Positions 9,497 to 63,900 of a DNA stretch of 64,000 nucleotides are shown in pieces. The notes under the pieces are model-generated. The model had not been told where the DNA came from. It did not search any database and worked only from the letters and a program-made list of their open reading frames with translations. The stretch is from Prevotella sp. (lineage in GTDB: Bacteria > Bacteroidota > Bacteroidia > Bacteroidales > Bacteroidaceae): positions 1-64,000 of the forward strand of contig JAFTQG010000018.1 of the NCBI GenBank assembly GCA_017462915.1, read 5' to 3'. The number at the start of each line of letters is the position of its first letter. Within the stretch, counting starts at the first letter, position 1. Both the position numbers and the translations under genes were made by a program.

Positions 9497-9612
9497 TATA
9501 TTGTTGTTTAGTCGTTTTGTTGTTTGGTCGTTTAGTTATCAGTCTATTGCGGCTATATCGGCTATTACGGCTATCTCCGCCCAACCGCACAACCGCAATA
9601 ACCGCCTGCGCC
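9497..9612. repeat. Composite intergenic element
   Basis: Between two lyase genes. G/T arm 9501-9539 (TTTAGTCGTTTTGTTGTTTGG-like, 8-nt period), 9-nt-period core 9544-9576 (CTATATCGG-type units), C/A arm 9577-9607. It fills nearly the whole spacer. Confidence 0.8.
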
Positions 9613-9614
9613 TG

Positions 9615-11378
9615 TCATTCCACGACCTTTGTGGATACGCGGCGGTTGTCGCTGAGGGTGACGGTCTTTATCTTCACGCCTTTGGCATCAGCACTTACAG
9701 GCTGACCCTGCAGATTGTAGTAAACCGTGGACACGACCTCGGCGTCTGCGGCAGGAATATCGGCTATTGCAGTAGAGGCAGAAGAGGGATAATACTCGTC
9801 TACGCCACTGACGGCATCGGCGTTGCCGCCCTTCATGATATGCTCCACAAGCGAGTTGCAGTACACCTCGAGATTGGTGTACCAGCCGCGGGTGTCTACA
9901 GTGGCCTTCAAGGCATCGCTTGCATCGTTGGGATTCAGTCCGTTGGCTATCTCCCAGGCGTCAGCCATGCCGTCGCCGTCCGTGTCAAAGTCGGCAGGAC
10001 GCTTAGACGTGGCGAGGTCAGGGTAGGAGGCTGTCGTGTTGTCCGCTGTCTCACCAGGGACGTTTATGACATCAAGAATACCCTGCGTATCGGCATGTCC
10101 GCCTGTGAAAGTCACCGTCCCTGTCCGCGCCTCCTCCATGTAACGGGCGTCGACGGCATCGCGGTGAAGGCTCGCGCCGCAGTATTCGAGCACCTTCTCG
10201 TATGCTGTCCGGGCGTCATGTGTGGTGACATCGCCAGCCTCTATAGGGCTGTCGAGCCTTATCCTTATACAGTCCACGCCGTCAGAGTTCTTCACGTATG
10301 TCTGGTCCTCACCGTATCTGTGCTGCGGGTCGTTGCAGTACATCTCGCCATTGATGTCGAAAAGGCCTCCGTCATACACTACACCCTGCCAGTCATAGTT
10401 CTCGGGACGGGCGGCGGCAGTGACGTAATTGCCGCTGATGTAGTAGCGGCTGGTGTATCCCGGGAAAGGATTGTCTCCGCCGTTGCCGGCGTCAGACTTG
10501 GAGACAAGTGTCACACGAGTCTTGTTGGCAGTGCCCGGACCGGCCTTGTAGTAGTTGTTCACCATATTTATATGTCCTCCTCCGGGACCTCCGTAGCATC
10601 CGCCCGTGCCCCAGTTGTACATGACACAGTTGCGGAAGTCCACGCGCTCGGCCTGTATGGAGTTGGCATACTTGGTCTTGTCGTAGCCCGTCCAGTTGTA
10701 CCGTGCTCCGTTGAAGCGCGGCGCACGGTTCTGCACATGCGTGATATAGTTATGGTGGAACGACGCTCCCTTTCCGCCCCAGATGCCGCCATAGCTATGG
10801 TCGCCCTTGTCGTGTCCCGAGTTGAGCCCCTCGCCGACGGTACACCACTGCATGGTGAAGTCACGGTTGTCATAGAAAGACGCCACCTCGTCTATGCTCC
10901 ATGAGAACGAGCAGTGGTCGAGAATGATATTCTTGTGCTCACGTCCCCACGTCGCGTCGGCACCGTCGTTGACATCTTTCACCTGCGAACGGCGGAAGCG
11001 CATGAAGCGGCAGATGACGTTATCGCAATTTGTAAACTCTACAGTGTAGTATCGGAGCGTTATGCCCGGCGCAGGAGCTGTCTGCCCGAGGATGGAGGTG
11101 TTGGACGATATGCGCAGATTGCTTTTGAGGTCTATGTATCCGCCGACGTCGAAGACGATGGTCTTCTTGCCGCTTTGGCTCAACGCCCAGCGCAGCGAAC
11201 CGGTGCCGGAGTCGTTGAGATTGGTGACGTGGATTGTCTTTCCGCCGCGTCCTCCTGTGGCATAGCGGCCGAATCCTTCCGCTCCCGGGAATGCCGGAGC
11301 TGTCTCTGTCTGCGCCATTGCCGCTACAGGAAGGGCGGCAAGGATAAATGAAAAGAGTTTCTGCTTTATGGATTGCAT
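9615..11378 (-). CDS. Pectate lyase, PL1 family, with sorting-type tail
   Basis: 587 residues. Signal peptide MQSIKQKLFSFILAALPVAAMAQ, PAFPGAEGFGRYATGGRGG, ILDHCSFSWSIDE, FHHNYITHVQNRAPRF and MVNNYYKAG mark a PL1 beta-helix. DTDGDGMADAWE follows near residue 455. Unlike the 532-residue paralogue, it ends with about 50 extra residues (VYYNLQGQPVSADAKGVKIKTV) resembling a type IX secretion C-terminal domain, which would place it on the cell surface or outside. It is the third of four lyases in tandem on this strand, and each is separated by a repeat-filled spacer, so one shared operon is uncertain. Confidence 0.9.
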   Translation of the reverse strand: MQSIKQKLFSFILAALPVAAMAQTETAPAFPGAEGFGRYATGGRGGKTIHVTNLNDSGTGSLRWALSQSGKKTIVFDVGGYIDLKSNLRISSNTSILGQTAPAPGITLRYYTVEFTNCDNVICRFMRFRRSQVKDVNDGADATWGREHKNIILDHCSFSWSIDEVASFYDNRDFTMQWCTVGEGLNSGHDKGDHSYGGIWGGKGASFHHNYITHVQNRAPRFNGARYNWTGYDKTKYANSIQAERVDFRNCVMYNWGTGGCYGGPGGGHINMVNNYYKAGPGTANKTRVTLVSKSDAGNGGDNPFPGYTSRYYISGNYVTAAARPENYDWQGVVYDGGLFDINGEMYCNDPQHRYGEDQTYVKNSDGVDCIRIRLDSPIEAGDVTTHDARTAYEKVLEYCGASLHRDAVDARYMEEARTGTVTFTGGHADTQGILDVINVPGETADNTTASYPDLATSKRPADFDTDGDGMADAWEIANGLNPNDASDALKATVDTRGWYTNLEVYCNSLVEHIMKGGNADAVSGVDEYYPSSASTAIADIPAADAEVVSTVYYNLQGQPVSADAKGVKIKTVTLSDNRRVSTKVVE

Positions 11379-11388
11379 GTATGGTTTG

Positions 11389-11541
11389 TTTTTTTATGGT
11401 TTTGCGGTTTTGCGGTTTTGCGGTTTTACGGTTTTGCGGTGATAGCCGGAATAGCCGATATAGCCTGAATAGGGGTTGGTGGTTTAGTTGTTTAGTGGTT
11501 TTGGGTTATCGTTAGGGTTAGGGTTATCGTTAGGGTTAAGA
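11389..11541. repeat. Composite intergenic element, G/T arms on both sides
   Basis: A run of TTTTGCGG units (8-nt period, 11397-11439), then 9-nt core (11440-11474), then GGTTTAGT units and a telomere-like GTTAGGGTTAGGG stretch (11505-11540). No C/A arm follows, so this copy cannot form the long hairpin. Confidence 0.75.
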
Positions 11542-11556
11542 TCTCCCAAGCCACTG

Positions 11557-12915
11557 TCATTTCCCCTTCATGGTCTTCCTCCCGTTGCTCACCGTGATGC
11601 CAGAGGCATAGTCGCCGACAGGCTGGCCGGCAAGATTGAACGCTCTGGAGGTCACGCGTCCCGATACGGGAATAGACGTAATAGCCGTGGCGTTGCCGAA
11701 CAGTGTCGCGCCGGCATGTGTCCCTACCTCCTCGGGGACAAGGGAGGCGTCGAACGGAGTGTAGTCGTAAGGCATGGCGACCTCGCCTTTTGTCGCGAGA
11801 CGGTAGTTTGTCCCGGGGCTCTCCACGATATTCTCGCGGCTGACATACGCCGTGGCATTAGAGGCGGAGAAGCACTTGCTGACGCCCTTGGCGAAATAGT
11901 TGCCCTCGATGAGCAGCGTCGATTTGTTGCGCGCATGTATGCACGGCGAGGAGTTTCCCTGACAGTTGTAGTAGTTGTTGACTATATGCAGCGTGCCGTA
12001 GCGCACCATGGGCATACGCGCCGAGCAGCCTGCGCCCCAGACATTGTTGGCGAAAGTGATGTTGAGCTTTCCCTCGTCGTCGGGCGACTCTTCCGCGCTG
12101 CACACGAGATTGGTGAAGGAATGTGAGTAGGCGCGCTCCGTATAGCTGAACGTGCACCAGCTGACGGTGACGAAATCAGACTGCATCGTGATGTCGAAAT
12201 TGCCGTCGAGACCGTCCGTGAACTCGCAATGGTCCACCCAGATGTTCCTCGAACCGGTCATCTGCAGCAGGTCTGTGCCGCCGACATCGACAGAGCCGGG
12301 ACCGACGAACTTCAGGTTGCGCACGATGATGTTGCTGCACTTGGACATCTGGAAGACACCTGCCTGACGGTGGTTCTCGTTGCCGAACATGTCTATGAGT
12401 TCCTGACGCGTATGCTGCTCCTGCTCTTCCGAGACATAGACGCCGTTGCTGAGATAGCCGCCTGTGCCTGCCACGCCGCTCATGGAGAGCACTCCGGCGT
12501 CGTCAAGGCGCTTGCGCACAGCGTCGGTGACATACCACTGGGTGCACAGCCGCGCGCCGTTTATGCCGAGCAGGGTCTTGCCCGACAGTCTGTTCATGGG
12601 CACTGCCTTGGAGAGAATGAAGTCTCCTGCCGCGCCGTCGAAGACCACCACGCTGTAGCGGGTCACGGCATCGAGAATCTCCGCGCGCATGTCCTTGCCG
12701 CTGGACTGCAGTATCTTCACCCTACTGGCATCGATTCCCGTGCAGGGCCAGTCCTTTACACCGCCGCCGGTGACGTCGAACGGCTCGGAGCCCGGCTCGA
12801 GCGACGTGCACAAAGCCATGCCGAACGGTTCGTTGCGGTCATGTGCCGACTGTCCGTATGACGGCGTGCAGAGGGCGGCGCACAGCACGGACATGATGAT
12901 ATTCCTCAGTTTCAT
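11557..12915 (-). CDS. Pectate lyase, PL1 family, classical type
   Basis: 452 residues, closer to classical PL1 pectate lyases than its neighbours. Signal peptide MKLRNIIMSVLCAALCTPSYGQ; NIIVRNLKFVGPG; NIWVDHCEFTDGLDGNFDITMQSDFVTVSWCTF, carrying the calcium-site aspartates; and CSARMPMVRYGTLHIVNNYY with the catalytic-region arginine. C-terminal RAFNLAGQPVGDYASGITVSNGRK looks like a degenerate type IX sorting tail. The start was set at the ATG at 12915, just before the signal peptide; the 65-codon upward extension has no signal sequence. The role is extracellular pectate cleavage. Confidence 0.9.
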   Translation of the reverse strand: MKLRNIIMSVLCAALCTPSYGQSAHDRNEPFGMALCTSLEPGSEPFDVTGGGVKDWPCTGIDASRVKILQSSGKDMRAEILDAVTRYSVVVFDGAAGDFILSKAVPMNRLSGKTLLGINGARLCTQWYVTDAVRKRLDDAGVLSMSGVAGTGGYLSNGVYVSEEQEQHTRQELIDMFGNENHRQAGVFQMSKCSNIIVRNLKFVGPGSVDVGGTDLLQMTGSRNIWVDHCEFTDGLDGNFDITMQSDFVTVSWCTFSYTERAYSHSFTNLVCSAEESPDDEGKLNITFANNVWGAGCSARMPMVRYGTLHIVNNYYNCQGNSSPCIHARNKSTLLIEGNYFAKGVSKCFSASNATAYVSRENIVESPGTNYRLATKGEVAMPYDYTPFDASLVPEEVGTHAGATLFGNATAITSIPVSGRVTSRAFNLAGQPVGDYASGITVSNGRKTMKGK

Positions 12916-13272
12916 GGTTCTTATTGCGTATCTAGTTTTTGTTTTATTCTTAGATAACGCGCGACATCCGCATTTATTGTGGGAGAGACGTATAAAGTGT
13001 GTAAAAATATGCTGTCGGCCTTTTATAAATGACGCGTCTCTTCCTCCGTCGCGCCCTGCCGTCAGGCATATTGTTGTGTGCGGTTTCTGTATCCCGTTAT
13101 GGGCGGTCAAGGTTACGCGCCCTGCCGTTTCTTGTTCTCGGAAAACACCCTGAGTTTTCTTATTCGCTGTTTATCATAACGGGAAAACGCCGCTCGCGAC
13201 ACGCCTCCCGTATCGGTTTTTCAGGCCGCCGATGGCGGTTTTCATGGTGACTGATATGGGGAAAAGGGCAAA

Positions 13273-13400
13273 AAGGCCACCTTTCATGCAAAATCCATGA
13301 GGCTTTACCTTGCAAAGAGTAAGTTTTTATCCTGCAAACGGTGACTTTTTACGCTGTAAATGGTGACACTTTGTCTTATGAAAGGTCACATCTGACAGGT
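13273..13400. repeat. 22-nt-period GGTGACC array A
   Basis: Six units start at 13273, 13295, 13317, 13339, 13361 and 13383, each 22 nt. The core varies (AGGCCACC, GAGTAAG, CGGTGAC, TGGTGAC, AGGTCAC) but position is fixed, and units tend to end in TGCAAA or TGNAAA. This is the longest and most diverged of five such arrays. Confidence 0.75.
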
Positions 13401-13626
13401 TTGCTGTTGCCCGTTTTTCGTGCAAATCTTTATAAACCACTGATGGATAGGGTGTTGCATAAACGGTAAAATTTCTCGTTTTTCAGGGAGTTTCTTCCTC
13501 TTTTCATTTCTACGTGAGTATTTCAGGCTTTATACAGCGTGAGTTTTCTTTACATGGATGCCCTCGCAGTGTCAGCAGGAGATGCGCCTCCGCCGACGTA
13601 TTTGCACTTTTTAACCTGACAAACGC

Positions 13627-13656
13627 TTGGCTTTTCATGGAAAAAATGTAATTTTG
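13627..13656 (+). promoter_or_regulatory. Promoter of the small lipoprotein gene
   Basis: TTG (13627-13629), 19 nt, TAATTTTG (13649-13656), matching the Bacteroidota promoter pattern. Transcription would start near 13663, about 30 nt before the ATG. Confidence 0.6.
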
Positions 13657-13691
13657 CAACCTGTAACATCTATTATTATTTTCAATACAAG

Positions 13692-14111
13692 ATGACACGG
13701 CGACTGGCTTACATACTCCTTCTGCTGACTACGGCACTGCTCTCCTGCACCGATACGGGCGAGAGGACTGCCGAGGTATGGCACGAGGCGACGGTGGAAA
13801 GTCTTGCGGACGGCGAAGGAAGCGACGCTGTCCTCTCGGGCGACGACCGTCAGCTGACGTCCATGGCTATGCAAGGGGAGACCGTGAGCGTGCCGACAGG
13901 GGTGTCGACACCGGCTGCCTTCCACGGGACACCGTGCTCGAAGCAGGTGCGCTCCCATCATTCGCCGCTGCGGATGACGGCTTCCGCCCGCTCCGCCTCA
14001 CAGGCGCGCCGTCATCATCTGCCAATAGTTTTCGCGAAGGCAGGCACGGCCTTCGTCTCCACGCGTGCGGCAAACTATTATGTGTTTGCCCTTATGCGCA
14101 TGTTGTGTTAG
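13692..14111 (+). CDS. Small lipoprotein, unknown
   Basis: 139 residues. N-terminal MTRRLAYILLLLTTALLSCTDTG is a clear lipoprotein signal with lipobox LLSC, cysteine near residue 19. The rest is low-complexity and not recognised. In the last two thirds another frame is also open and its codon pattern is no worse, so a frameshift near 13930 is possible. A good promoter precedes it and a hairpin terminator follows, which supports expression as a single gene. Confidence 0.55.
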   Translation: MTRRLAYILLLLTTALLSCTDTGERTAEVWHEATVESLADGEGSDAVLSGDDRQLTSMAMQGETVSVPTGVSTPAAFHGTPCSKQVRSHHSPLRMTASARSASQARRHHLPIVFAKAGTAFVSTRAANYYVFALMRMLC

Positions 14112-14129
14112 ACCTTTTCCGTTTTTGAT

Positions 14130-14177
14130 GCATTTCCTTACACAGCGGCACGGCTGTCGTTGATGCAAAGGAAATGC
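14130..14177 (+). terminator. Terminator after the small lipoprotein gene
   Basis: GCATTTCCTT (14130-14139) pairs with AAGGAAATGC (14168-14177); a second stem ACAGC/GCTGT sits in the loop; TGTATTTTATTTAT follows. Confidence 0.6.
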
Positions 14178-14275
14178 TGTATTTTATTTATCTTATTATA
14201 TATCAGAGGATTTACATGCCCGGCAATAGCCTGGGCGTGCGTCCCGACATATCACATCATTAAACATAGACTGAA

Positions 14276-16010: not shown

Positions 16011-16245
16011 TATTGGTGGTTTAGTTGTTTGGTGGTTTAGTGTTTTGGTTGTTTGGTGGTTTAGTGGTTTAGTTGTTTGGTGGTTTAGTGTTTTGGTTGT
16101 TTAGTGGTTTAGTGGTTTAGTTATTTGGTGGTTTAGTCGTTTAGTTGTTTTAGTTCCTATTTCGGCTATTCCGGCTATATCGGCTATCACCACCCAAAAA
16201 CCAAATAACCAAACCACCAAACCACCAAACCACCAAACGACCACC
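16011..16245. repeat. Composite intergenic element, full length
   Basis: One of the longest copies, between convergent genes. G/T arm 16013-16155 (at least 16 GGTTTAGT-like 8-nt units), 9-nt core 16159-16188, C/A arm 16190-16243 (CCAAACCA units). The arms are complementary and would fold into a hairpin of over 50 bp. Confidence 0.85.
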
Positions 16246-19954: not shown

Positions 19955-20060
19955 TAGGTTTTTGGATGTTAGGTTTGGGGTTTTAGGTGATAGCCACAAT
20001 AGCCGGAATAGCCGATATAGATTCTATTCAGGCTATCGAGGCTATTCCGGCTATAATGTA
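19955..20060. repeat. Composite intergenic element
   Basis: G/T arm 19955-19985 (GGTTTTTGGATGTTAGG-like), then a 9-nt-period core from 19988 to 20058 that first reads ATAGCC-type units and then their complement, forming a hairpin. No C/A arm. Confidence 0.75.
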
Positions 20061-21177: not shown

Positions 21178-21317
21178 ACATCAGGGTGTATACTTTCTGC
21201 AAAATTACTTATTTTAATCTACATAGAAGAGTAATGGACTTTCTTATTAGTTTTTTTTAACACGAAGAGGCGTCTCGACACGATAGTGCGAAGTGTCTGC
21301 CATGGCTTGCCCGGCGG

Positions 21318-21409
21318 AGGGTGACCTTTTGTCTGGCAAACCGTCACCCTCCACAGGGCAGAAGGTGACCCTCTGCCTGATGAAAGGTGACCCTTTGCAG
21401 GGCGATGGA
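21318..21409. repeat. 22-nt-period GGTGACC array B
   Basis: Cores at 21320, 21342, 21364 and 21386: GGTGACC, CGTCACC, GGTGACC, GGTGACC, exactly 22 nt apart. It directly precedes a composite element and the promoter of the exopolysaccharide locus. Confidence 0.8.
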
Positions 21410-21513
21410 ACGGCGATAGCCGGAATAGCCTTGATAGCCTGAATAGAAACTATAGAGGCTATATCGGCTATTCCGGCTATCGCCTAAAAACCCAACACCA
21501 CTAAACCACCAAA
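21410..21513. repeat. Composite element with 19-bp palindrome
   Basis: Arms 21412-21430 and 21466-21484 are perfect 19-bp inverted copies made of 9-nt units, with further CTATAGAGG-type units in the loop. A short C/A arm (CCACTAAACCACC) follows. It ends 4 nt before the -33 box of the next promoter. Confidence 0.85.
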
Positions 21514-33436: not shown

Positions 33437-33591
33437 TGACGGTTCGGTTTTACGGTCTTACGGTTGGGCGGTTATACGGCTATTGCTTCTATATCGGCTA
33501 TAAAGGCTATTCCGGCTATTGTAACCCTAACCCTAACCCAAAACCACCAAACCACCAAACCACTAAACCACTAAACAACAAAATACCCAAC
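33437..33591. repeat. Composite intergenic element ending at a start codon
   Basis: G/T arm 33440-33480 (GCGGTTATACGG units), 9-nt core 33480-33520, a telomere-like CCCTAACCCTAACCC stretch, and a C/A arm 33538-33585 that ends at the ATG of the fifth lyase. Confidence 0.8.
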
Positions 33592-35253: not shown

Positions 35254-35340
35254 AGGGTGACGGTAGACAGTGTGAAAGGTCACCTTTCACCATGCAGAAG
35301 GTAACGGTCTGCACGGTGAAGGGTGACCTTTCTTTCGTTG
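35254..35340. repeat. 22-nt-period GGTGACC array C
   Basis: Cores GGTGACG, GGTCACC, GGTAACG and GGTGACC at 35256, 35278, 35300 and 35322, exactly 22 nt apart, between convergent genes. Confidence 0.8.
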
Positions 35341-36170: not shown

Positions 36171-36364
36171 ATGGCGGTTTTGTACGGTTGTGCGGTTGAT
36201 GGCGGTTATACGGTTATGCGGTTATACGGTTGATGGCGGTTATACGGTTATACGGTTGTGCGGTTAAGGTCAAGGTGGATAGCCGCAATAGCCAGAATAG
36301 CCGGAATAGAAGCAATAGGATCTATAGAGGCTATATCGGCTATTCCGGCTATCCACCAAACCAT
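36171..36364. repeat. Composite intergenic element
   Basis: G/T arm 36171-36270 (GCGGTTATAC 8- and 9-nt units), then a long 9-nt-period core 36276-36353 with palindromic halves, then a short CCACCAAACC arm. Confidence 0.8.
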
Positions 36365-36606: not shown

Positions 36607-36749
36607 GGTTGTTTAGTCGTTTGGTTGTTAGCCTTCTATATCGGCTATTCCGGCTATATCGGCTATCACTCATAACTCATAACTCATAACTCACAACTCA
36701 CAACTCATAACTCACAACTCATAACTCACAACTCATAACTCACAACCCC
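36607..36749. repeat. Composite element with a CTCATAA array
   Basis: Short G/T arm (36608-36630), 9-nt core 36634-36667, then a 7-nt-period array ACTCATA/ACTCACA (36668-36746) in place of the usual CCAAACCA arm. It ends at the methyltransferase start codon. Confidence 0.8.
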
Positions 36750-36752
36750 AAA

Positions 36753-37679
36753 ATGCAAAGGGCGACAAGAAACAAGACTCTGACCGTGTCGGAGCAGGAG
36801 ATACCTCTGCTGGAGAGCCACATCAGCTCTGCAGAGGAACTGGCGCATGGCTTCCGTGACGACATGATTGTCAACGGAGACCTGCAAGACTGCCTTGACA
36901 GTCTGCCGGACGGACATTTCGACCTCATCATCGTCGACCCTCCATACAATCTCGACAAGAACTTCCACGGCCGCCGCTTCGCGGCAATGAAGAGCGGCGA
37001 CTACGAGGAGTATCTGCGCAGCTGGTTCCGCAGGCTGTGCGACAAGCTCCGTCCCGACGGCTCCCTGTACATGTGCGGCGACTGGCGATGCTCCTCGTCC
37101 ATGCAACGGGTCATAGAGGAGCGGCTCACCGTCATGAACAGGATAACATGGCAGCGGGAGAAGGGACGCGGCGCAAGGGCCAACTGGAAGAACGGGATGG
37201 AGGATATCTGGTTTGCCGTGAAAGACCCCGGAAACTACTGCTTCGACATCGAATCAGTCAAGCTCCGCCGCCGTGTGCTCGCCCCTTACAAGGCAGACGG
37301 AAAGCCGAAGGACTGGGAGGAGACAGCCTCGGGAAAGTTCAGGACCACCTGCCCCTCAAATTTCTGGGACGACATAAGCGTCCCCTTCTGGTCCATGCCC
37401 GAGAATACCGACCATCCTACACAGAAGCCCGAGAAGCTATATGCCAAGTTGATACTCGCCTCCTCAAGGCCCGGAGGCAGGATACTCGACCCGTTCATGG
37501 GGAGCGGCACCGCCGCTGTCGTGGCGCGGAAGCTCGGCCGCCGTTTCTGCGGCATAGAGATAAACAGGGAATACTGCCTGTGGGCGGCGAAGCGCCTTGA
37601 GGCAGCCGACACCGACAAGACGATACAGGGCTACGCCGGCGGTGTATTCTGGGAACGCAACTCCACGCGCAGGATGTAG
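36753..37679 (+). CDS. Orphan DNA methyltransferase, beta class
   Basis: 308 residues. Motif IV (FDLIIVDPPYNLDKNF, near residue 55) precedes motif I (RILDPFMGSGTAAVVARKLGRRFCGIEI, near residue 245), the beta-class order of CcrM-like adenine or N4-cytosine methyltransferases. DPPY favours N6-adenine. The HPTQKPEKLYAKLI segment before motif I is typical of type II/III solitary enzymes. No restriction nuclease or specificity gene lies nearby, so a regulatory or host-protective orphan is more likely. The stop is followed by another repeat element. Confidence 0.85.
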   Translation: MQRATRNKTLTVSEQEIPLLESHISSAEELAHGFRDDMIVNGDLQDCLDSLPDGHFDLIIVDPPYNLDKNFHGRRFAAMKSGDYEEYLRSWFRRLCDKLRPDGSLYMCGDWRCSSSMQRVIEERLTVMNRITWQREKGRGARANWKNGMEDIWFAVKDPGNYCFDIESVKLRRRVLAPYKADGKPKDWEETASGKFRTTCPSNFWDDISVPFWSMPENTDHPTQKPEKLYAKLILASSRPGGRILDPFMGSGTAAVVARKLGRRFCGIEINREYCLWAAKRLEAADTDKTIQGYAGGVFWERNSTRRM

Positions 37680-37680
37680 T

Positions 37681-37762
37681 GTGCGGTTTGGTGCGGTTAT
37701 GCGGTTGTTCGGTTTTACGGTGATAGCCTGAATAGCCGATATAGCTTGAATAGAAAATATAC
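37681..37762. repeat. Composite intergenic element, short
   Basis: G/T arm 37681-37717 (GTGCGGTTATGCGG units) followed by 9-nt core 37719-37758. No C/A arm. Confidence 0.75.
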
Positions 37763-37861: not shown

Positions 37862-39211
37862 ATGAAGAAATTGTTTATCGAGACCTACGGTTGCCAGATG
37901 AATGTGGCAGACTCGGAGGTCGTCGCCAGCGTGATGGGCATGGCTGGCTATGAATTGTGTGAGTCGGCGGAGGACGCCGACGCTGTGTTCCTTAACACCT
38001 GCTCTGTCAGGGAGAATGCGGAGAACAAGGTGCTCCACCGCCTTGACACCTTATATAATATGTACAGGAACAAGGGGAGGAAGGTCATTCTCGGTGTGCT
38101 CGGCTGTATGGCGGAGCGTATGAAGGCGGAGCTGATAGAGAAGCATCATGCCAGTCTTGTGGCAGGGCCTGACTCTTATCTCAGTCTTCCTGACCTCATA
38201 GCGCAGTGTGAACTGGGACACACGGCGATAGACACGGAGCTCTCCACGACGGAGACGTACAAGGATATCCTGCCGCAGCGCAGCCGCGGACAGCGTCTGT
38301 CGGGCTTCGTGAGCATCATGCGCGGCTGCAACAACTTCTGCCACTACTGCATAGTGCCTTACACGAGGGGCAGGGAGAGGAGCCGCGAGGTGGAGTCGAT
38401 ACTCAACGAGTGTCGTGACCTTCAGGAGCGCGGCTTCAAGGAGCTGACGCTCCTCGGGCAGAACGTGAACTCCTACTGTGCGGAGCAGGACGGCAGGGTG
38501 GTGGCTTTCCCGCAGCTTCTTGCCATGGTGGCCGAGGCTGTCCCGGGGATGCGTGTGCGCTTCACCACGTCTCACCCTAAGGACATGAGCGACGAGACGC
38601 TGGAGGTCGTGGCAAGGTATTCTAATGTCTGCAAGCATATCCATCTGCCTGTGCAGTCGGGTTCGGACAAGATACTGAAGCTCATGAACCGCAAGTACAC
38701 GCGTGAGTGGTATCTCGACAGGGTGAATGCCATCAGGCGCATAGTGCCGGAGTGTTCCATCACGACGGATATCTTCGTTGGCTATCACGACGAGATGGAG
38801 GAGGACCACCGCCAGAGCCTGTCGCTCATGAGGGAGGTGGGCTATGATTCTGCCTTCATGTTCAAGTATTCGGAGCGTCCGGGGACATACGCGAGCAAGC
38901 ATCTCCCTGACAATGTCGCGGAGGAGGAGAAGATAAGGCGTCTTAACGAGATGATACGCTTGCAGACGGAGATTTCCGCCGAGCAGTACCGCAAGGATGT
39001 CGGCAAGACCTTCGAGGTGCTTATTGAGGGCTACAGCAAGCGTTCTCGCGAGCAGCTTTGTGGCCGCACGTCGCAGAACAAGATGGTTGTCTTCGACCGT
39101 ATATATAAAAACGCCGAAGGCAAGGAGATAACCTTGCACTCCGGCGAGTATGTCAATGTGCGTATAACCGACTCTTCAAGCGCTACGCTGAAAGGGGTTT
39201 TGGTGGTTTAG
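37862..39211 (+). CDS. miaB: tRNA-i6A37 methylthiotransferase MiaB
   Basis: 449 residues. UPF0004 domain with TYGCQMNVADSE and NTCSVRENA, radical SAM domain with CNNFCHYCIVPYTRGRERSR (CxxxCxxC binding 4Fe-4S), and a C-terminal TRAM domain (EVLIEGYSKRSREQLCGRT). It adds a methylthio group to isopentenyladenosine 37 of tRNAs. The last codons and stop lie in the first repeat of the following intergenic element (GGTTTTGGTGGTTTAG), so the C terminus VLVV comes from repeat sequence. Confidence 0.95.
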   Translation: MKKLFIETYGCQMNVADSEVVASVMGMAGYELCESAEDADAVFLNTCSVRENAENKVLHRLDTLYNMYRNKGRKVILGVLGCMAERMKAELIEKHHASLVAGPDSYLSLPDLIAQCELGHTAIDTELSTTETYKDILPQRSRGQRLSGFVSIMRGCNNFCHYCIVPYTRGRERSREVESILNECRDLQERGFKELTLLGQNVNSYCAEQDGRVVAFPQLLAMVAEAVPGMRVRFTTSHPKDMSDETLEVVARYSNVCKHIHLPVQSGSDKILKLMNRKYTREWYLDRVNAIRRIVPECSITTDIFVGYHDEMEEDHRQSLSLMREVGYDSAFMFKYSERPGTYASKHLPDNVAEEEKIRRLNEMIRLQTEISAEQYRKDVGKTFEVLIEGYSKRSREQLCGRTSQNKMVVFDRIYKNAEGKEITLHSGEYVNVRITDSSSATLKGVLVV

Positions 39212-39386
39212 TGGTTTGGTCGTTTGGTGGTTTAGTCGTTTAGTGGTTTAGTGGTTTAGTGGTTTGGTGGTTGCAGGTTATAGCCGATATAGCCAGAATA
39301 GCCGAAATAGACTAATAACTAAATAACTAAACGACTAAACCACTAAACGACCAAACGACCAAACGACCAAACAACCAAACAACCAA
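39197..39386. repeat. Composite intergenic element starting inside miaB
   Basis: G/T arm 39194-39273 (GGTTTAGT and GGTTTGGT 8-nt units, including the miaB stop), core 39278-39311, C/A arm 39318-39386. The next gene, converging, takes its stop codon TAG from the far arm. Confidence 0.85.
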
Positions 39387-40115: not shown

Positions 40116-40357
40116 TTTGGTGGTTTGGTTGTTTGGTGGTTTAGTGGTTTGGTTGTTTGGTTGTTTGGTTGTTTGGTGGTTTGGTTGTTTGGTGGTTTGG
40201 TGATTTGAGCTTCGCTCGAAGTCCCTTCCGCTCGGCAGAGCTCAAGCAAGCTTGGCTCTGCTCTCGCTTAAACGGGACTTTGGTGGTTTGGAGATAGCCG
40301 GAATAGCCGATATAGTCGGAATAGATGACTATCAACCAAACGACCAAACAACTATAT
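40116..40357. repeat. Composite element with inserted hairpin
   Basis: G/T arm 40116-40205 (GGTTTGGT and GTTTGGTT units), then a 65-nt insert (40206-40278) with nested stems AAGTCCC/GGGACTT and GCAGAGC/GCTCTGC, then 9-nt core 40292-40330 and a short C/A arm 40335-40352. Confidence 0.8.
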
Positions 40358-42256: not shown

Positions 42257-42377
42257 GTTGGTGGTTTGGTGGTTTAGTGGTTTGGTTGATTAGTGGTTTG
42301 GTTATTTGGTTGATAGCCGGAATAGTCGAAATAGAGGTCTGGCAACCAAACCACTAAACGACTAAACAACCAAACCA
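42257..42377. repeat. Composite intergenic element
   Basis: G/T arm 42257-42312, short core 42313-42334, C/A arm 42342-42380. The C/A arm read on the minus strand supplies the stop codon (ATTTAGTGG) of the PAP2-like gene. Confidence 0.85.
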
Positions 42378-42995: not shown

Positions 42996-43183
42996 TTGGT
43001 TGTTTGGTTGTTCAGTTGTTTGGTTGTTTAGTGGTTTGGTTGTTTAGTGATTTGGTGGTTTAGTGATTTGGTGGTTTAGTTGTTTAGTTAATGGTGATAG
43101 CCGGAATAGCCGATATAGCAGGAATAGATGGCTGTCAACCAAACGACTAAACCACCAAACAACTAAACGACCAAACCACTACC
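42996..43183. repeat. Composite intergenic element, full length
   Basis: G/T arm 42997-43090 (GGTTGTTT and GGTTTAGT units), core 43094-43133, C/A arm 43136-43182 (CCAAACGACTAAACC units). Confidence 0.85.
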
Positions 43184-43186
43184 TCC

Positions 43187-44641: not shown

Positions 44642-44757
44642 TGTTGTATGGGGTTGTGCGGATATTATACGGTTGTGCGGTTGATAGCCGGAATAGCCGA
44701 TATAGCCGGAATAGGAAGGACTGATGTCCGTATAACCGTATAACCGTATAAACCGTA
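44642..44757. repeat. Composite intergenic element
   Basis: G/T arm 44643-44682 (GGTTGTGCGG units), core 44683-44717 (ATAGCCGGA x4), C/A arm 44733-44757 (CCGTATAA 8-nt units), complementary to the G/T arm. Confidence 0.85.
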
Positions 44758-44766
44758 ACTCAGTCA

Positions 44767-45423: not shown

Positions 45424-45592
45424 GGGGATGGGTGGTTTTTTGGTGATTTTGTTGTTTAGTTGTTTAGTCGTTTGGTTATTTGTTTATGGTTGTGGGTTCG
45501 GGTTGCGATAGCCTGAATAGCCGATACAGTAGTAATAGGTGAAAACTATCAACTAAACCACTAAACGACTACACAGCCAAACCACTAAATCC
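45424..45592. repeat. Composite intergenic element, C/A arm inside sufE
   Basis: G/T arm 45430-45505, core 45506-45540, C/A arm 45548-45592. Read on the minus strand the far arm encodes the last six residues and the stop of sufE (FSGLAV, TAG). Confidence 0.85.
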
Positions 45593-45991: not shown

Positions 45992-46078
45992 TTGGTTGTC
46001 TGGTGGTTTAGTGATTTTGTTGTTTGGTTGTTGGTTTTTGTTTTATAGCCGGAATAGCCGATATAGCCGGAATAGGAT
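45992..46078. repeat. Composite intergenic element, no C/A arm
   Basis: G/T arm 45992-46043 (GGTTTAGT, GTTTGGTT units) and core 46044-46076 (ATAGCCGGA, ATAGCCGAT units). Confidence 0.8.
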
Positions 46079-46106
46079 AACGGCTGCTGATTATCAATGC
46101 TTTACA

Positions 46107-46185
46107 GAGGTGACCTTTTGCTTGGCGGAAGGTGACCTTTTGTCAGGTGAACAGTGACCTTTTATCCTGCTGACCATGACACTTG
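46107..46185. repeat. 22-nt-period GGTGACC array D
   Basis: Cores at 46109, 46131, 46153 and 46175 (GGTGACC, GGTGACC, AGTGACC, CATGACA), exactly 22 nt apart. The first three are each followed by TTTT. It lies between two composite elements. Confidence 0.8.
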
Positions 46186-46296
46186 GGTTGGTTGTTTGGT
46201 TGTTTAGTGGTTTAGTGGTTTTGTTGTTTGGTTAATAGCTGAAATAGAGACTAACAACCAAATAACTAAACGACCAAACCACTAAACCACTAAATC
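46186..46296. repeat. Composite intergenic element, minimal core
   Basis: G/T arm 46186-46232, a reduced core TAATAGCTGAAATAG (46233-46247) and C/A arm 46254-46296. The far arm supplies the stop TAG of the U32 gene (ATTTAGTGG). Confidence 0.8.
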
Positions 46297-48851: not shown

Positions 48852-48949
48852 TGGTCGTGGGTTGATAGCCGGAATAGCCGATATAGCCTCTATAGCTTCT
48901 ATATCGGCTATTCCGGCTATCTCCATAAAACCTAAAACCCACAACCATG
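48852..48949. repeat. Composite element, most perfect palindrome
   Basis: Inner arms 48864-48886 and 48899-48921 are perfect 23-bp inverted copies of the 9-nt core around a 12-nt loop. Outer arms ATGGTCGTGGGTT (48851-48863) and AACCCACAACCAT (48936-48948) pair with one mismatch across a 14-nt spacer. Total stem is about 36 bp. Confidence 0.85.
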
Positions 48950-55637: not shown

Positions 55638-55756
55638 TGTGGTGGTTGTATACGGTTATGCGGTTGGGCGGTGATAGCCTGAATAGCCGATATAGCCGGA
55701 ATAGAAGCTATAGAGGCTATAATATTTATAGAGGCTAATTCCGTCTGTCACGGCTA
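55638..55756. repeat. Composite intergenic element
   Basis: G/T arm 55638-55670, then 9-nt core 55671-55756 with many CTATAGAGG-type units; the last core units encode part of the next gene's stop region. Confidence 0.75.
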
Positions 55757-56791: not shown

Positions 56792-56900
56792 TGTTGTTTA
56801 GTGGTTTGGTCGTTTAGTGGTTTGGTTATGTGTTTTTGTGGTTTTGCCGCGCTGCATATAGCCAAACGACCAAACCACTAAACGACCAAACCACCAACCT
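56792..56900. repeat. Composite element without the 9-nt core
   Basis: G/T arm 56792-56840 (GTTTAGTGGTTTGG units) and C/A arm 56863-56897 (CCAAACGACCAAACC), separated by unrelated DNA with only one ATATAGCC unit. The arms still pair. Confidence 0.8.
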
Positions 56901-56901
56901 C

Positions 56902-59355: not shown

Positions 59356-59509
59356 GACCCGGTGTCTTCCCGCAATGTTTTTTTGCGTGAGGCGACACAT
59401 TTTTTCCCGAACAATGAGCTTTTTACAGAGAAATTATGTAACTTTGCACTTAATATATAATGTAGGCATCCGTCTGCACAGGCTGTGCCGCATGACGCCT
59501 GCCGTCCCG

Positions 59510-59595
59510 ACCGTGACCCTTCACCCGGCAGACCGTCACCCTTTACCATCTGAAAGGTGACCCTCCGCCACATGAAAGGTGACCCTCCGCGAGGA
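59510..59595. repeat. 22-nt-period GGTGACC array E
   Basis: Cores at 59512, 59534, 59556 and 59578 (CGTGACC, CGTCACC, GGTGACC, GGTGACC), exactly 22 nt apart, in the presumed cysS leader. Confidence 0.8.
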
Positions 59596-59619
59596 GACGG
59601 AAAGCCCCTTGCGGTCTCA

Positions 59620-59732
59620 GTCTATATAGTCATAATAGCCGTTATAGCCGGAATAGAAGCTATAGAGGCTATATCGGCTATTCCGGCTATCAACTCTAAA
59701 CCACCAAACCACTAAACCACCAAACAACCACC
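59620..59732. repeat. Composite element ending at the cysS start codon
   Basis: 9-nt core 59625-59692 with inverted halves, then C/A arm 59697-59732 (CCACCAAACCACTAAACC units) running straight into the ATG. No G/T arm. Confidence 0.85.
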
Positions 59733-61220
59733 ATGACCCAGACACTTCTCATCTACAATACCCTCCACAGACAGAAGGAACGTTTCGAACCGCTCCACGC
59801 CCCTAACGTGGGCATGTATGTCTGCGGACCGACAGTCTACGGCGACGCACATCTCGGACATGCGCGCCCGGCGATCACGTTCGACATCCTCTTCCGCTAT
59901 CTCCGCCACCTCGGCTACAAGGTGCGCTATGTCCGCAACATCACCGATGTCGGACACCTCGAGCACGATGCCGACGAGGGCGAGGACAAGATAGCCAAGA
60001 AGGCACGGTTGGAACAGCTCGAGCCGATGGAGATAGCACAGTATTACACACGCCGGTTCAACGCGGCGATGGAGAAGCTCAATGTCCTGCCGCCGTCGAT
60101 AGAGCCGCACGCCACAGGACACATCATAGAGCAGCAGCAACTCGTGCAGCAGATTCTCGACAACGGATACGCATACGTCAGCAACGGTTCCGTATACTTC
60201 GACATAGAGCGTTACAACAACGACTTCAAGTACGGCATACTCTCGGGACGCTCGCTCGAGAACGTCAAGGACGCCAGCCGCGACACCCTCGCCGGCGTGG
60301 GAGAGAAGAAAAACCAGGCAGACTTCGCCCTTTGGAAAAAGGCTCAGCCCGAACACATCATGCGCTGGCCGTCGCCATGGTCCGACGGCTTCCCCGGCTG
60401 GCACTGCGAGTGCACCGCCATGGGCAGGAAATACCTCGGCGACGAGTTTGACATCCACGGCGGAGGCATGGACCTCGTCTTCCCTCACCACGAATGTGAG
60501 ATAGCACAGGCACAGGCTTCCATGGGACACCCTGCCGTGAAATACTGGATGCACAACAACATGATAACCATCAACGGTAAGAAGATGGGCAAGTCGTACA
60601 ACAATTTCATCACCCTCGACCAGTTCTTCAAGGGCGACCACGAGCTCCTCACACAGCCTTTCGCACCGCTGACGATACGCTTCTTCATCCTCTCCGCACA
60701 CTACCGCGGCACCGTCGACTTCTCCAACGACGCCCTCATCGCGGCAGAGAAGGGACTGGAACGCCTGCAGACAGGCCTCAAAGACCTCATGCGCATACAA
60801 CCGGCAAAGGGCTCGCAGCCTGAGATACAGCAGTTTGTGGAGAGCCTCCCGCAGAAGCTCTATGACGCAATGAACGACGACCTCCAGACTCCGGAGATCA
60901 TAGCGATGCTCTTCGAGGCATGCCGACAGGTGAATATCCTCGTCGACCGCAAGGCGAAGATTTCCGCCGCCGACCTCCAGAAACTCTCAGAGACCATGCA
61001 CCTGTGGATGGAGGACATCCTCGGACTGAAGCCTGCCGAGGGCAGCGCCGACCCTGCAAAGGAGAAGGCCTTCGGAAAGGCCGTGGACATGGTGCTCGAG
61101 ATGCGCGCCAAGGCCAAGGCAGAGAAAGACTGGGCGACATCCGACCGCCTGCGCGACGAGCTCCAGGAAGCCGGCTTCGTCATCAAGGACACTGCCGACG
61201 GCGCAGTATGGTCGATCTGA
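59733..61220 (+). CDS. cysS: Cysteinyl-tRNA synthetase
   Basis: 495 residues. Class I synthetase: [30 protein letters not shown] (HIGH-type motif HLGH), zinc-site residues, [47 protein letters not shown], and [13 protein letters not shown] (KMSKS-type). The C-terminal DALR-like region ends with [22 protein letters not shown]. It charges tRNA-Cys. Start chosen at the ATG after the C/A repeat arm. Confidence 0.96.
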
Positions 61221-61223
61221 TAA

Positions 61224-61406
61224 GGCAGAAACGGTAGCCGTAATAGCCATTATAGTCTTGATAATCTCTATAGTCTTGATAATATCTATAGTCTTTATAG
61301 CCTCTATAATTCCTATAGTTTCTATTCCGGCTATATCGGCTATTCCGGCTATCTCCATAAAACCCCACAACCCACAACCTACAACCCAAAACCCAAAAAC
61401 CACCAA
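61224..61406. repeat. Composite element with long 9-nt core
   Basis: From 61231 at least 13 consecutive 9-nt units (ATAGCCGTA, ATAGCCATT, ATAGTCTTG, ATAATCTCT ...) to about 61352, the longest core in the window, then a C/A arm (CCACAACC, AACCTACAACC) to the next start codon. Confidence 0.85.
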
Positions 61407-62219
61407 ATGGCTAACCTATTCAACATCAAGGACTACGTCGTAGTCATCACCGGCGGCACAGGCATCCTCGGCCGCTGCATCGCAAAGTATCTGGCACTCG
61501 AAGGTGCCAAAGTAATCATCGGCGGACGCAAGGCCGACGTCGGCGCGGAGATTGTCTCCGACATACAGGCAGCAGGAGGCGTCTGCGAATTTGTCAAGAT
61601 GGACGTCATGAGCGAAGAAACCATGCAGGCCGCCTGCGACTATATCGTGGAGAAATACGGCAAGGTAGACACGCTCCTCAACGCCGCCGGAGGCAATATG
61701 GCAGGTGCCGTGGTAGGCCCTGACCAGACCTTCTTCGACCTCCAGCCCGACCAGTTCCAGGCAGTGCTCAACCTCAACCTCACCGGCACCGTGATACCTA
61801 CACGCATATTCCTCAAGCCGATGGTGGCACAGGGCAAGGGAAGCATCATCAACTTCTCCTCGATGTCCGCCTTCCGCCCTCTCACACGCGTCTGCGGATA
61901 CTCCGCGGCAAAGAGCGGCATCAACAGCTTCACAGCCTGGCTGGCACAGGAGGCGGCACGCAAGTTCGGCGAAGGCATCCGCGTCAACGCCATAGCACCG
62001 GGATTTTTCCTCACGGAGCAGAACCGCTCTCTCCTCACCAACCCTGACGGCTCATACACACAGCGCGGCAGTGACGTCATCCGACAGACACCGTTCTCAC
62101 GCATGGGAGAGCCTGAAGAGCTCTGCGGCACGATACACTATCTGATGTCCGACGCCGCAAAGTTCGTCACCGGCACCGTCGCCGTAGTAGACGGAGGATT
62201 CAATGTAACGGCAATGTAA
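61407..62219 (+). CDS. SDR oxidoreductase, probable mannonate oxidoreductase
   Basis: 270 residues. Rossmann start VVVITGGTGILGRCIAKYLALEGAKVIIGGRK (TGxxxGxG), NAAGGNMAG, SIINFSSMSAF and the active-site YSAAKSGINSF (YxxxK). Position directly before uxuA suggests fructuronate reductase activity (D-mannonate:NAD oxidoreductase of the SDR type), since Bacteroidota often use an SDR here in place of classical UxuB. The activity itself is inferred from context. Confidence 0.85.
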   Translation: MANLFNIKDYVVVITGGTGILGRCIAKYLALEGAKVIIGGRKADVGAEIVSDIQAAGGVCEFVKMDVMSEETMQAACDYIVEKYGKVDTLLNAAGGNMAGAVVGPDQTFFDLQPDQFQAVLNLNLTGTVIPTRIFLKPMVAQGKGSIINFSSMSAFRPLTRVCGYSAAKSGINSFTAWLAQEAARKFGEGIRVNAIAPGFFLTEQNRSLLTNPDGSYTQRGSDVIRQTPFSRMGEPEELCGTIHYLMSDAAKFVTGTVAVVDGGFNVTAM

Positions 62220-62220
62220 A

Positions 62221-62480
62221 TGATTGGTGGTTTGGTGGTTTAGTTATTAGTCTATTCTGGCTATATCGGCTATTCCGGCTATCCTCTCAAATAACCAAAT
62301 AACCAAATAACCAAACCACCAAATAACCAAACCACCAAATAACCAAACCACCAAATAACCAAACCACCAAATAACCAAACCACCAAATAACCAAACCACT
62401 AAACCACCAAACCACCAAACCACCAAACCACCAAACCACCAAACCACCAAACCACCAAACCACTAAACAACTAAACCACT
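62221..62480. repeat. Composite element with long C/A arm
   Basis: G/T arm 62223-62245, core 62250-62283, C/A arm 62287-62478 (CCAAATAA and CCAAACCA 8-nt units, over 20), ending at the uxuA start. The two arms are unequal, so only part can pair. Confidence 0.85.
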
Positions 62481-63761
62481 ATGGAAAGAACATGGCGTTG
62501 GTTTGGCAAGAACGACAAGATCACTCTTGCCATGCTGAAACAAATAGGCGTGGAAGGCATAGTCACCGCACTCCACGATGTGCCGCTCGGCGAAGTATGG
62601 ACACGCGAGAAGATACGCGACCTCAAGGAGTATATCGAAAGCTACGGCATGCGCTGGAGCGTAGTAGAGTCGCTCCCCGTGACAGAGACAATAAAATACG
62701 GCGGACCTGACCGCGACCAGCAGATAGAGGTCTACAAGGAGTCGCTCGCAAACCTCGGCAAGGAGGGCATACACTGCGTATGCTACAACTTCATGCCGGT
62801 GCTCGACTGGGCACGCACAGACCTCCTCCACGATAACCCTAACGGTGCCTCAAATCTCTACTTCAACTGGGCAGAGTTCGCATACTTCGACATACATATC
62901 CTCAAGCGCGAAGGCGCAGAGGAGGAGTGGAAAGCTATCGTCGAGGGCAACGGCTCCAATGCCTCCAAAGCCCTTCAGGGACGCGACCTCATGGCAGAGG
63001 TGGAGGCCATCCGCGCTAAGGCGGACGCGAAATACGACCGCGACCTTGTGGAGAATATCGTCATAAAGACCCAGGGCTTCGTCTCCGGCAACTTCAAGGA
63101 GGGCGACGAGAAGCCTGTAGAGCTCTTCCGCGAACTCCTCGCGCTCTATGACGGCGTGACAAAGGACGACCTGCGCAACAACATGAAGACATGGCTCGAG
63201 GCCATCATGCCTATCTGCGACGAGTACGACATCGACATGTGCGTGCATCCTGACGACCCGCCGTATCCTATCCTCGGACTTCCGCGCATCGTCAACTGCG
63301 AGGACGACATACAGTGGTTCCTCGATGCTGTCCCTAACGAGCACAACGGCCTGACATTCTGCGCCGGTTCCCTCTCGGCAGGAGGACATAACGACCTCAC
63401 GCCGCTGGCGGAGAAATTCCATGAGCGCACACATTTCGTGCACCTGCGCTCCTGCTATATCTTCCCTAATGGCGACTTCACGGAGGCAAGCCATCTCGGC
63501 GGACGCGCAAACCTCGTGGAACTGGCACGCATCTTCGAGAAGGAGGAGCAGCGCCGCATGGAGACACGCAAGCCGTCGACACAGAAGCTCCCTATGCGCG
63601 TAGACCACGGCATGACAATGCTCGGCGACGAGGACAAGGGCTACAACGCCGGATACTCGTTCCTCGGCCGCATGTTCGGTCTTGCACAGGTGCAGGGTAT
63701 CATCGCTACCGTAGACGATGAGCTTGGCATAAAGTACACACAGCCGGGATTCTTCGGGTAA
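62481..63761 (+). CDS. uxuA: Mannonate dehydratase
   Basis: 426 residues. MERTWRWFGKNDKITLAMLKQIGVEGIVTALHDVPLGEVW, then YNFMPVLDWARTDL, MCVHPDDPPYPILGLPRIVN (metal-site Cys/His region), TFCAGSLSAGGHNDL and HLRSCYIFPNGDFTEASHLGG, and MRVDHGMTMLGD. It dehydrates D-mannonate to 2-keto-3-deoxygluconate in glucuronate breakdown. It sits directly after the SDR gene. Confidence 0.95.
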   Translation: MERTWRWFGKNDKITLAMLKQIGVEGIVTALHDVPLGEVWTREKIRDLKEYIESYGMRWSVVESLPVTETIKYGGPDRDQQIEVYKESLANLGKEGIHCVCYNFMPVLDWARTDLLHDNPNGASNLYFNWAEFAYFDIHILKREGAEEEWKAIVEGNGSNASKALQGRDLMAEVEAIRAKADAKYDRDLVENIVIKTQGFVSGNFKEGDEKPVELFRELLALYDGVTKDDLRNNMKTWLEAIMPICDEYDIDMCVHPDDPPYPILGLPRIVNCEDDIQWFLDAVPNEHNGLTFCAGSLSAGGHNDLTPLAEKFHERTHFVHLRSCYIFPNGDFTEASHLGGRANLVELARIFEKEEQRRMETRKPSTQKLPMRVDHGMTMLGDEDKGYNAGYSFLGRMFGLAQVQGIIATVDDELGIKYTQPGFFG

Positions 63762-63765
63762 GGTG

Positions 63766-63900
63766 CGGTTTTACGGTTTTACGGTTAGGCGGTTGTGCGG
63801 TTTTACGGAAATCAGTCCTGCATATTCCGGCTATATCGGCTATTCCGGCTATAACCTACAACCTACAACCTACAACCTACAACCCCAAAACCTCAAAACC
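63766..63900. repeat. Composite element after uxuA
   Basis: G/T arm 63763-63805 (GCGGTTTTACGG units), core 63820-63852, C/A arm 63853-63900 (AACCTAC 7-nt units). Confidence 0.8.

Follow-up and report, generated by a model that had tools for sequence, protein, structure and literature searches.

Strand-polarized short-repeat elements anchored to gene ends in the intergenic spacers of a Prevotella genome

The first 64,000 nucleotides of contig JAFTQG010000018.1 of Prevotella sp. (assembly GCA_017462915.1), the stretch analyzed here and called the window, carry between their genes composite elements in which a G/T-rich array of short units, a core of 9-nt units and a C/A-rich array follow one another. 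The steadiest part of these elements is the module on the leader side, formed by the core, the C/A array and the start codon of the next gene, because C/A arms abut starts, lone C/A arms prevail and half-cores follow gene direction; the palindrome is not what is best kept. The G/T array, with or without a half-core of its own, is an optional partner beside the upstream stop codon. The window lies on contig C49 of a genome of 2.93 Mb in 59 contigs (99.97% complete; G000), and it was compared with a close relative, Prevotella sp. SC0317_S2_2 (G060). Unless stated otherwise, counts for G000 refer to a sample of 461 kb, made up of the window and 20 further stretches, the part outside the window being about 14% of the genome; the G060 stretches were picked for carrying matches, and densities in G060 are consequently biased upwards. 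Genes and start sites were called with a home-made codon-usage caller instead of a standard annotation, and the unit types, or dialects, were assigned with simple patterns.

An earlier reading of the window from its letters alone (the sequence-only reading) had described 8-nt arms around 9-nt cores, and Tandem Repeats Finder recovered period-8 arms and period-9 cores across 9.5-63.9 kb, where 24 loci were delimited by eye, 22 of them with a strict 9-nt core. The strict core pattern formed 23 clusters in the window, 22 intergenic and one a chance match within a gene. In the automated count, 11 of the 22 loci had a G/T arm, core and C/A arm, seven a G/T arm and core only, three a core and C/A arm only, and one a core between two G/T arms; none had the reversed order, just as had been claimed. 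This count overlooked a C/A arm at 39.3 kb and took in a doubtful distant G/T stretch at 48.8 kb, and after correction by eye the complete two-armed loci amount to 11-12 of 22. The full composite had been presented as the rule; it is found at about half of the window loci, and among lone arms in the co-directional spacers of G000 the C/A arm is by far the commonest (43 against 7 lone G/T arms, p = 2e-7). The core consists of 9-nt units of the CTATNCCGG type (ATAGCCGGA and variants). The arms do contain the 8-mers first noticed, together with 6- and 7-mers, so that periods range overall from 6 to 9. The dialects AAACnAC, AACCG, AACCYA, AACTCA and CCCTAA are found in the single genome G000, and dialects vary between species and inside single arms. 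There are also broken palindromes, with G/T arrays on both sides at 11.4 kb and C/A arrays on both sides of the core at C25:3603.

Such elements are spread over the genome. The 15-nt core pattern ATAGCCNNAATAGCC has 199 matches in G000 and its reversed version none. Strong periodicity was scored where 30 nt matched themselves to >=73% at a lag of 7, 8 or 9, and 70 of 199 sampled spacers have such a stretch; the control lags 10/11/13 gave 0, and dinucleotide-shuffled spacers gave 0.1. The sequence-only reading had named random occurrence inside genes as a finding that would speak against it, and this was not seen: 79 core clusters lie between called genes and two within genes, at 22 and ~80 nt from gene ends. 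These clusters were counted with an exact pattern, in place of a looser one-mismatch version that matched 22 of 306 genes. Its statement that nearly every spacer is filled was too broad, since arms of score 16 are present in just 83 of 150 co-directional spacers, at a threshold that yields 205 arms per 461 kb in the shuffled sample against 205 intergenic and 142 genic arms in the real one. On account of this background, densities were taken at stricter thresholds (22 and 26), the stricter cut-off giving 17.9 arms per 10 kb of intergenic and 1.0 per 10 kb of genic sequence. By spacer type, cores occur in 60 of 150 co-directional, 8 of 20 convergent and 8 of 28 divergent spacers (divergent against co-directional, p = 0.29), and periodic arrays in 59 of 154, 7 of 20 and 4 of 25, respectively (p = 0.04 for the same comparison). 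A scan of the window with Rfam 15 returned only a tRNA and an abiF RNA above the gathering score, and the elements match no known RNA family.

The order of the arms is fixed with respect to the genes. Across all spacer types of G000, adjacent arms read G/T then C/A in 33 pairs, C/A then C/A in 14, G/T then G/T in three and C/A then G/T in one; in the co-directional spacers alone the first, second and last of these classes count 27, 11 and 0, and in all spacer types of G060 17, 7 and 0. Where a C/A arm is the last one in a co-directional element spacer, no more than 10 nt separate its end from the start codon in 46 of 60 cases in G000 and 25 of 28 in G060, with a median distance of 0. In 36 of 42 co-directional cases of G000 the half-core, which reads CTATTCCGGCTATATCGGCTATTCCGGCTATC immediately upstream of the C/A arm, has the same orientation as the genes (p = 3e-6), and 16 further co-directional clusters contain both orientations. 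Near starts, 34 arrays of G000 are C-rich, one is G-rich and three are mixed (n = 38), and near stops 17 are G-rich, eight C-rich and 16 mixed (n = 41); in G060, 14 of 14 are C-rich near starts, and seven are G-rich and two mixed near stops (n = 9). In G000 the leaders of co-directional genes, read on the sense strand, have A.41, C.28, G.13 and T.19 (n = 120), and those of divergent genes A.40 and C.18 (n = 46). The composite palindrome of the sequence-only reading is a frequent state of these elements and not their defining part, the C/A array at the start codon being steadier. On the upstream side, TAG is the stop codon of 14 of 38 co-directional G000 genes followed by G/T-rich sequence, against 15 of 64 followed by neither arm nor core, and in G060 of 13 of 23 genes with such a follow-on and 3 of 28 without. 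The G/T array often itself provides the upstream stop codon, a TAG contained in its repeat unit, as if the arrays overwrote gene ends.

In the stretches compared, the genes of G060 are ~94% identical to those of G000 and their order is unchanged. Ortholog pairs were obtained for 67 of the 216 spacers in the G060 stretches, both a core hexamer and an arm being required for an element locus; 14 pairs were dropped, three because of N in the G060 sequence and 11 because they had just a core or just an arm. In G060 all 34 element loci hold an arm or a core, with an arm present at 33 and a core hexamer at 25, and 19 plain spacers hold an arm in two cases and a core in none (arms 33/34 vs 2/19, p = 9e-11). 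The median spacer identity is 0.56 for elements against 0.88 for plain spacers (n = 34 and 19), while the adjoining gene ends do not differ in identity (94.4 and 94.0). In an earlier set, smaller and looser in that 7 of 29 'element' spacers lacked the core hexamer, own element pairs aligned at 0.55 on average and unrelated pairs at 0.38. At 25 loci a right-arm unit type could be assigned in both species, and it was the same at 11 and different at 14: AACCG arms were unchanged at 8 of 8 loci and AAACnAC arms at 3 of 14, G060 having AACCYA at eight of the latter and AACCG at three. With all four arms typed (eight loci), three loci differ in both arms, one in the right arm alone and four in none. 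The elements are rewritten in place, the letters differing between the two genomes while place and order stay. The sequence-only reading had named absence from all independent assemblies of related strains as a second finding that would speak against it, and the arrays are present in the separately assembled G060. Its view that the kind of unit is acted upon, and not an exact sequence, is supported, together with polarity, by the 34 loci compared, all of which keep an arm or core.

If transcribed, two-armed spacers are predicted to form long hairpins, as the sequence-only reading had anticipated. In the co-directional spacers of G000 the mean z of the fold against shuffles is -6.9 for two-armed spacers (22 of 24 below -2), with a median of 25 predicted pairs linking the outer thirds, -3.6 for C/A-only spacers (n = 36) and -2.3 for armless ones (45 of 61 folded); the corresponding values in G060 are -5.1 (9 of 11 below -2), -2.0 (n = 22) and -2.5 (n = 28). 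The arms of a spacer are predicted to pair better with each other than with swapped arms, both in G000 (-34.2 vs -28.5 kcal/mol, n = 27, p = 0.003) and in G060 (-24.0 vs -21.1 kcal/mol, n = 20, p = 0.02). In addition, the two arms have matching unit types in 21 of the 27 spacers of G000 that could be typed, where 13.7 are expected (p = 0.001).

The core has a narrow distribution. Among 397 other genomes drawn from the genus, G060 has 23 matches to the core pattern and the remaining 396 have 0-4 (up to 6 for the reversed control). A 24-nt core pattern was also scanned against 84,980 species, each represented by a single genome, a set that may omit the window's own genome; it gave two matches, both in G060. 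More distant members of the genus are without this core, and several carry periodic spacers with other units: 7 of 33 spacers in G008, 5 of 19 in G001, 4 of 10 in G022, 8 of 30 in G019 and 12 of 39 in G004, the last with GGAGTTAA arms and 9-nt GGCTNATNN cores. Taken together, the other 17 genus samples have 18 periodic spacers in 251, and six samples from families elsewhere in the order have 1 in 86; the control lags gave one match each in three of these genomes. In the other genus members, arrays near starts are C-rich in 13 cases, G-rich in five and mixed in two, and near stops C-rich in seven, G-rich in 16 and mixed in seven (p = 0.01). The strand rule extends, more weakly, to genus members with different units.

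We tentatively read the elements, with somewhat less than even confidence, as fast-turnover intergenic cassettes of 6-9-nt repeats that work as a G-poor leader and an mRNA hairpin and are kept as composition and polarity. In the order of reading, such a cassette would comprise the stop codon, the optional G/T array, the core of 9-nt units, the C/A array and the start codon. We infer that transcription runs across the spacers; the G-poor C/A array would then form the 5' leader of the gene that follows and keep its start usable for Shine-Dalgarno-independent initiation, and the G/T array, where present, would pair with it across the core to give an intergenic mRNA hairpin, which may shield the upstream 3' end. 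The arrays would grow and be rewritten through slippage and copying between arms or loci, and may extend as far as coding ends permit. An A at -3 is described as favorable to translation initiation in Bacteroidetes (PMC6847099), and the C/A leaders have A at -3 in 34 of 53 cases and at -6 in 36 of 53, vs 0.45 within arms, a weak signal. A wider claim seems doubtful to us, namely that there is a conserved class of gene-boundary elements defined only by strand composition, polarity and mutual pairing, in which an active genome-wide process swaps the unit, at some loci in both arms jointly, so that sister species write different 'dialects'.

Several observations weigh against the leader and hairpin reading. 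In the C/A leaders A is as high at -14 (0.66) as at -3 and -6, and in G060 there is no excess of A at -3 (0.59 in C/A leaders vs 0.62 in armless ones). The predicted paired fraction of the 15 nt before the start in G000 is 0.34 in two-armed, 0.28 in armless and 0.22 in C/A-only spacers, so that two-armed starts are not more open; in G060, where the values are 0.12, 0.21 and 0.18, they are. The agreement of left and right units in G060 (6 of 10, p = 0.13) and its half-core polarity (10 of 13, p = 0.09) are not significant alone. Furthermore, there are loci with C/A on both sides of the core, cores also lie between convergent and divergent genes, outside any stop-then-start context, and the arms called at score 16 carry the chance background given above. 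Finally, boxes of the -7-like promoter motif TAnnTTTG are not enriched (12 of 67 element spacers vs 18 of 83 others), and on this ground a promoter role was set aside.

The weak signal at -3 and -6 and the absence of greater openness at two-armed starts of G000 lowered our confidence in that reading and raised it in a close rival, near-neutral growth, which is quite possible although we would not bet on it. Slippage of 6-9-nt units and hairpin-templated copying would fill dispensable spacers, and selection would only remove arrays that block initiation; polarity would result from the purging of G-rich arrays before starts, inverted copies would come from template switching, and no positive function would be involved. 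Fast rewriting in place next to unchanged genes is what such growth would produce, as are dialects that differ between species and within one arm, and the similar polarity with different units elsewhere in the genus (13 C-rich against 5 G-rich at starts, 7 against 16 at stops). The lower share of strongly periodic arrays in divergent than in co-directional spacers (4/25 vs 59/154, p = 0.04) and the G000 two-armed starts also fit it. However, all 34 compared loci keep the element although loss was possible, and half-core polarity and the matching of own arms exceed what a mere purging of G-rich leaders would leave.

That the hairpins end or protect the upstream transcript on either strand, as transcription terminators or mRNA 3'-end stabilizers, is improbable. 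The strong hairpins predicted behind stop codons and the elements between convergent genes would suit this role, but a run of T6 within 40 nt after the core is present in 1 of 60 co-directional core spacers (0 of 20 in G060), a single one of the 56 terminator-like sites in 9.4-64.0 kb (loops of 3-8 nt only) lies inside the 24 elements (42336-42352), and the arrays reach the next start, where termination would silence the downstream gene. Intrinsic termination, one of the functions first suggested, was discarded on the rarity of a hairpin with a T-run (1/60 core spacers, 1/24 elements). Less probable still is the insertion of mobile palindromic elements into the spacers, of the miniature inverted-repeat transposable element (MITE) type or of the repetitive extragenic palindrome (REP) and bacterial interspersed mosaic element (BIME) type. 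REP and BIME have a partner transposase in the genome, the REP-associated tyrosine transposase (RAYT, Y1_Tnp), and one conserved palindromic sequence across copies, and MITE have fixed termini and are present or absent between relatives. The many dispersed copies of a common core (199 matches) and the insert-like palindromes nested in the arms recall such elements; nevertheless, the positions are common to the sister species at 34 of 34 compared loci, the arms stop at gene ends and have no fixed termini, the 24-nt core pattern has no exact match in IMG/VR, and no Y1_Tnp (RAYT-type) transposase is present in G000 (PF01797 search, 0 matches, with the control matched in 5 of 14 named genomes). 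REP and BIME were rejected on the missing PF01797 and because only the 9-nt-period core is common to the copies, the arms varying by dialect and species; MITE were rejected on the occupied sister loci, which offered no empty site from which to define a target-site duplication, and on the arms ending at gene ends. The polarity resembles that of telomeric repeats, and telomerase-like writing by a reverse transcriptase was also considered; G000 has two reverse-transcriptase domain genes above the cut-off (PF00078, RVT_1; L219 at C29:75978 and L220 at C58:34926), nothing ties them to the arrays, and this candidate was set aside.

Table 1. Elements delimited in the window (window positions; (-), reverse strand)
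Element	Position	Strand	Description
1	9501..9606	.	G/T arm 9501-9537, core 9544-9574, C/A arm 9577-9606; co-directional (-) genes; arms present in G060 ortholog
2	11379..11537	.	GCGGTTTT-type arm, core 11442-11472, second G/T arm with TTAGGG-like units; sole core flanked by G/T twice
3	16013..16245	.	Convergent genes; G/T 16013-16155, core 16157-16187, C/A 16188-16245
4	19955..20054	.	Short G/T arm, full inverted core 19990-20054, right arm not found
5	21416..21513	.	Divergent spacer; full core 21416-21480, C/A arm 21483-21513, G/T arm not found
6	33441..33590	.	ACGGTT-type G/T arm 33441-33473, core 33478-33519, CCCTAA, then ACCAAACC-type C/A arm
7	36180..36352	.	ACGGTTAT-type G/T arm up to 36265, full core 36279-36352
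8	36607..36752	.	GTTTAGTC-type G/T arm, core 36636-36666, ACTCATA 7-mer C/A arm reaching start at 36753
9	37680..37744	.	CGGTT-type G/T arm right behind stop, core 37723-37744, C/A arm not found
10	39199..39386	.	Convergent; GGTTTAGT-type arm, core 39280-39310, AAACGACC arm; 7-mers in both arms of G060 spacer
11	40116..40351	.	G/T arm, nested GC-rich palindromic insert, core 40294-40315, C/A arm
12	42257..42377	.	G/T 8-mers, core 42313-42325, C/A 8-mers; whole spacer between (-) genes
13	42996..43186	.	G/T arm, core 43097-43118, C/A arm; AACCG-type in both arms in G060
14	44642..44766	.	CGGTT-type arm, core 44684-44714, CCGTATAA arm
15	45424..45568	.	G/T arm, core 45508-45520, C/A arm
16	45992..46075	.	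G/T arm, core 46045-46075, C/A arm not found
17	46184..46289	.	G/T arm, reduced core (ATAGCTGAAATAG), C/A arm; outside strict count
18	48852..48947	.	Full palindromic core 48865-48920, short arms
19	55638..55720	.	CGGTT-type G/T arm, core 55674-55720
20	56792..56901	.	GTTTAGTG-type arm, one core hexamer (ATAGCC), AAACGACC arm; fills intergenic gap; outside strict count
21	59626..59732	.	Full core 59626-59690, C/A arm reaching start (59733) of cysteinyl-tRNA synthetase-like gene
22	61233..61406	.	Expanded 9-nt core 61243-61352, 7-mer C/A arm reaching start at 61407
23	62221..62480	.	G/T arm, core 62252-62282, ~190-nt C/A arm reaching start (62481) of UxuA-like gene
24	63762..63890	.	CGGTTTTA-type arm, core 63829-63852, CTACAAC 7-mer arm

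Within the elements of Table 1, telomere-like hexamers are found as TTAGGG at 11503-11538 (element 2) and CCCTAA at 33519-33540 (element 6). GC-rich, MITE-like palindromic inserts are nested in arms of G000, of the AAGTCCCTTCCG...CGGGACTTT type (window ~40207-40283; C38 spacers 25093, 56088 and 92914), and in C208 spacers of G060, of the GTAGGGACG...CGGCGTTTCACGCCG type. A second family of spacer repeats, with ~22-nt units like AAAGGTGACCTTTTGC, occurs in the window at 13304-13367, ~21300-21400, 35270-35330, 46085-46185 and 59565-59605, and it is well conserved in G060 in the sole pair measured (C38:6595, identity 0.87). A dispersed repeat of ~140 bp (L073 1-142, at the start of C25 of G000) has 15 near-full matches in G060, with 78-95% identity. 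Upstream of the elements, an Abi_2 protein gene (PF07751, 2320-3274, (-)) lies directly beside the abiF RNA, forming an AbiF-type pair; the segment that bears it (~2003-7776) is missing in G060, where its flanks adjoin (C175 ~8853). These flanks, at 315-1861 and 7890-9435 (-), are paralogous, each with 83% identity to the G060 counterpart of the other.

Porphyromonas gingivalis, another member of the Bacteroidales, is the host of the BrickBuilt MITE. As described, BrickBuilt is likewise intergenic, with tandem units within an element that has inverted ends, and it differs in its 23-nt unit, its 19 copies, its leader and tail subunits and its distance of 49-591 nt from genes (PMC4596501), whereas the Prevotella arms end at genes and their units vary. 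The short tandemly repeated repetitive (STRR) sequences of filamentous cyanobacteria are also short spacer repeats capable of forming hairpins; they are described for one promoter region and the hup genes, an account in which no polarity rule is seen (PMC2670836). Closer to the start codon are the TAACTGA direct repeats of Beggiatoaceae, Cyanobacteria and five Bacteroidetes, for which a role in translation has been proposed (MacGregor 2015, PMC4679880). Like the elements studied here, they form heptamer arrays a few nt from start codons, but they are one exact heptamer, and neither a core nor a G/T partner arm is seen in the published description. The closest likeness is with the GGGAATC and GGGGA(C/T)T heptamers of Xanthomonas and Nostoc, reported as intergenic arrays that lie mostly between aligned open reading frames (ORFs) and are under-represented between divergent ones, the share of arrays with the G-rich strand on the coding strand being largest <=50 bp after stops, and with it on the non-coding strand <=50 bp before ORFs (Rehm et al. 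2015, PMC4692102). The same paper counts 70 convergent inverted heptamer pairs in Xcc and 75 in Xac, with few in Nostoc, and leaves the function of the repeats open. Short intergenic units that are C-rich before starts and G-rich after stops, and inverted convergent pairs of arrays, are therefore already on record, and the fixed order is not unique. Unlike Xanthomonas and Nostoc, where one heptamer able to form a G-quadruplex (G4) is described, G000 has several dialects and a 9-nt core, and between G000 and G060 one dialect takes the place of another at fixed loci; tandem GGGNATC pairs number 0 in the G000 and G060 samples. Since the strand rule is the preference published for GGGAATC-type repeats, we regard the composite palindrome as belonging to a wider kind, that of spacer repeats that conform to translation and may make use of it. 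The core, the several dialects per genome and the switching of units in place are new with respect to the known repeats, and in the open-access literature we found no description of such elements in Prevotella or Bacteroidales.

The same gene-anchored strand polarity is now seen in a further group of bacteria and across different units. Two genomes whose compared genes are ~94% alike, with 14 of 25 typed spacers differing in unit at unchanged place and polarity, provide a natural experiment on whether sequence or composition is selected. If the arrays are indeed leaders, they would constitute a large natural library for initiation without a Shine-Dalgarno sequence in Bacteroidota.

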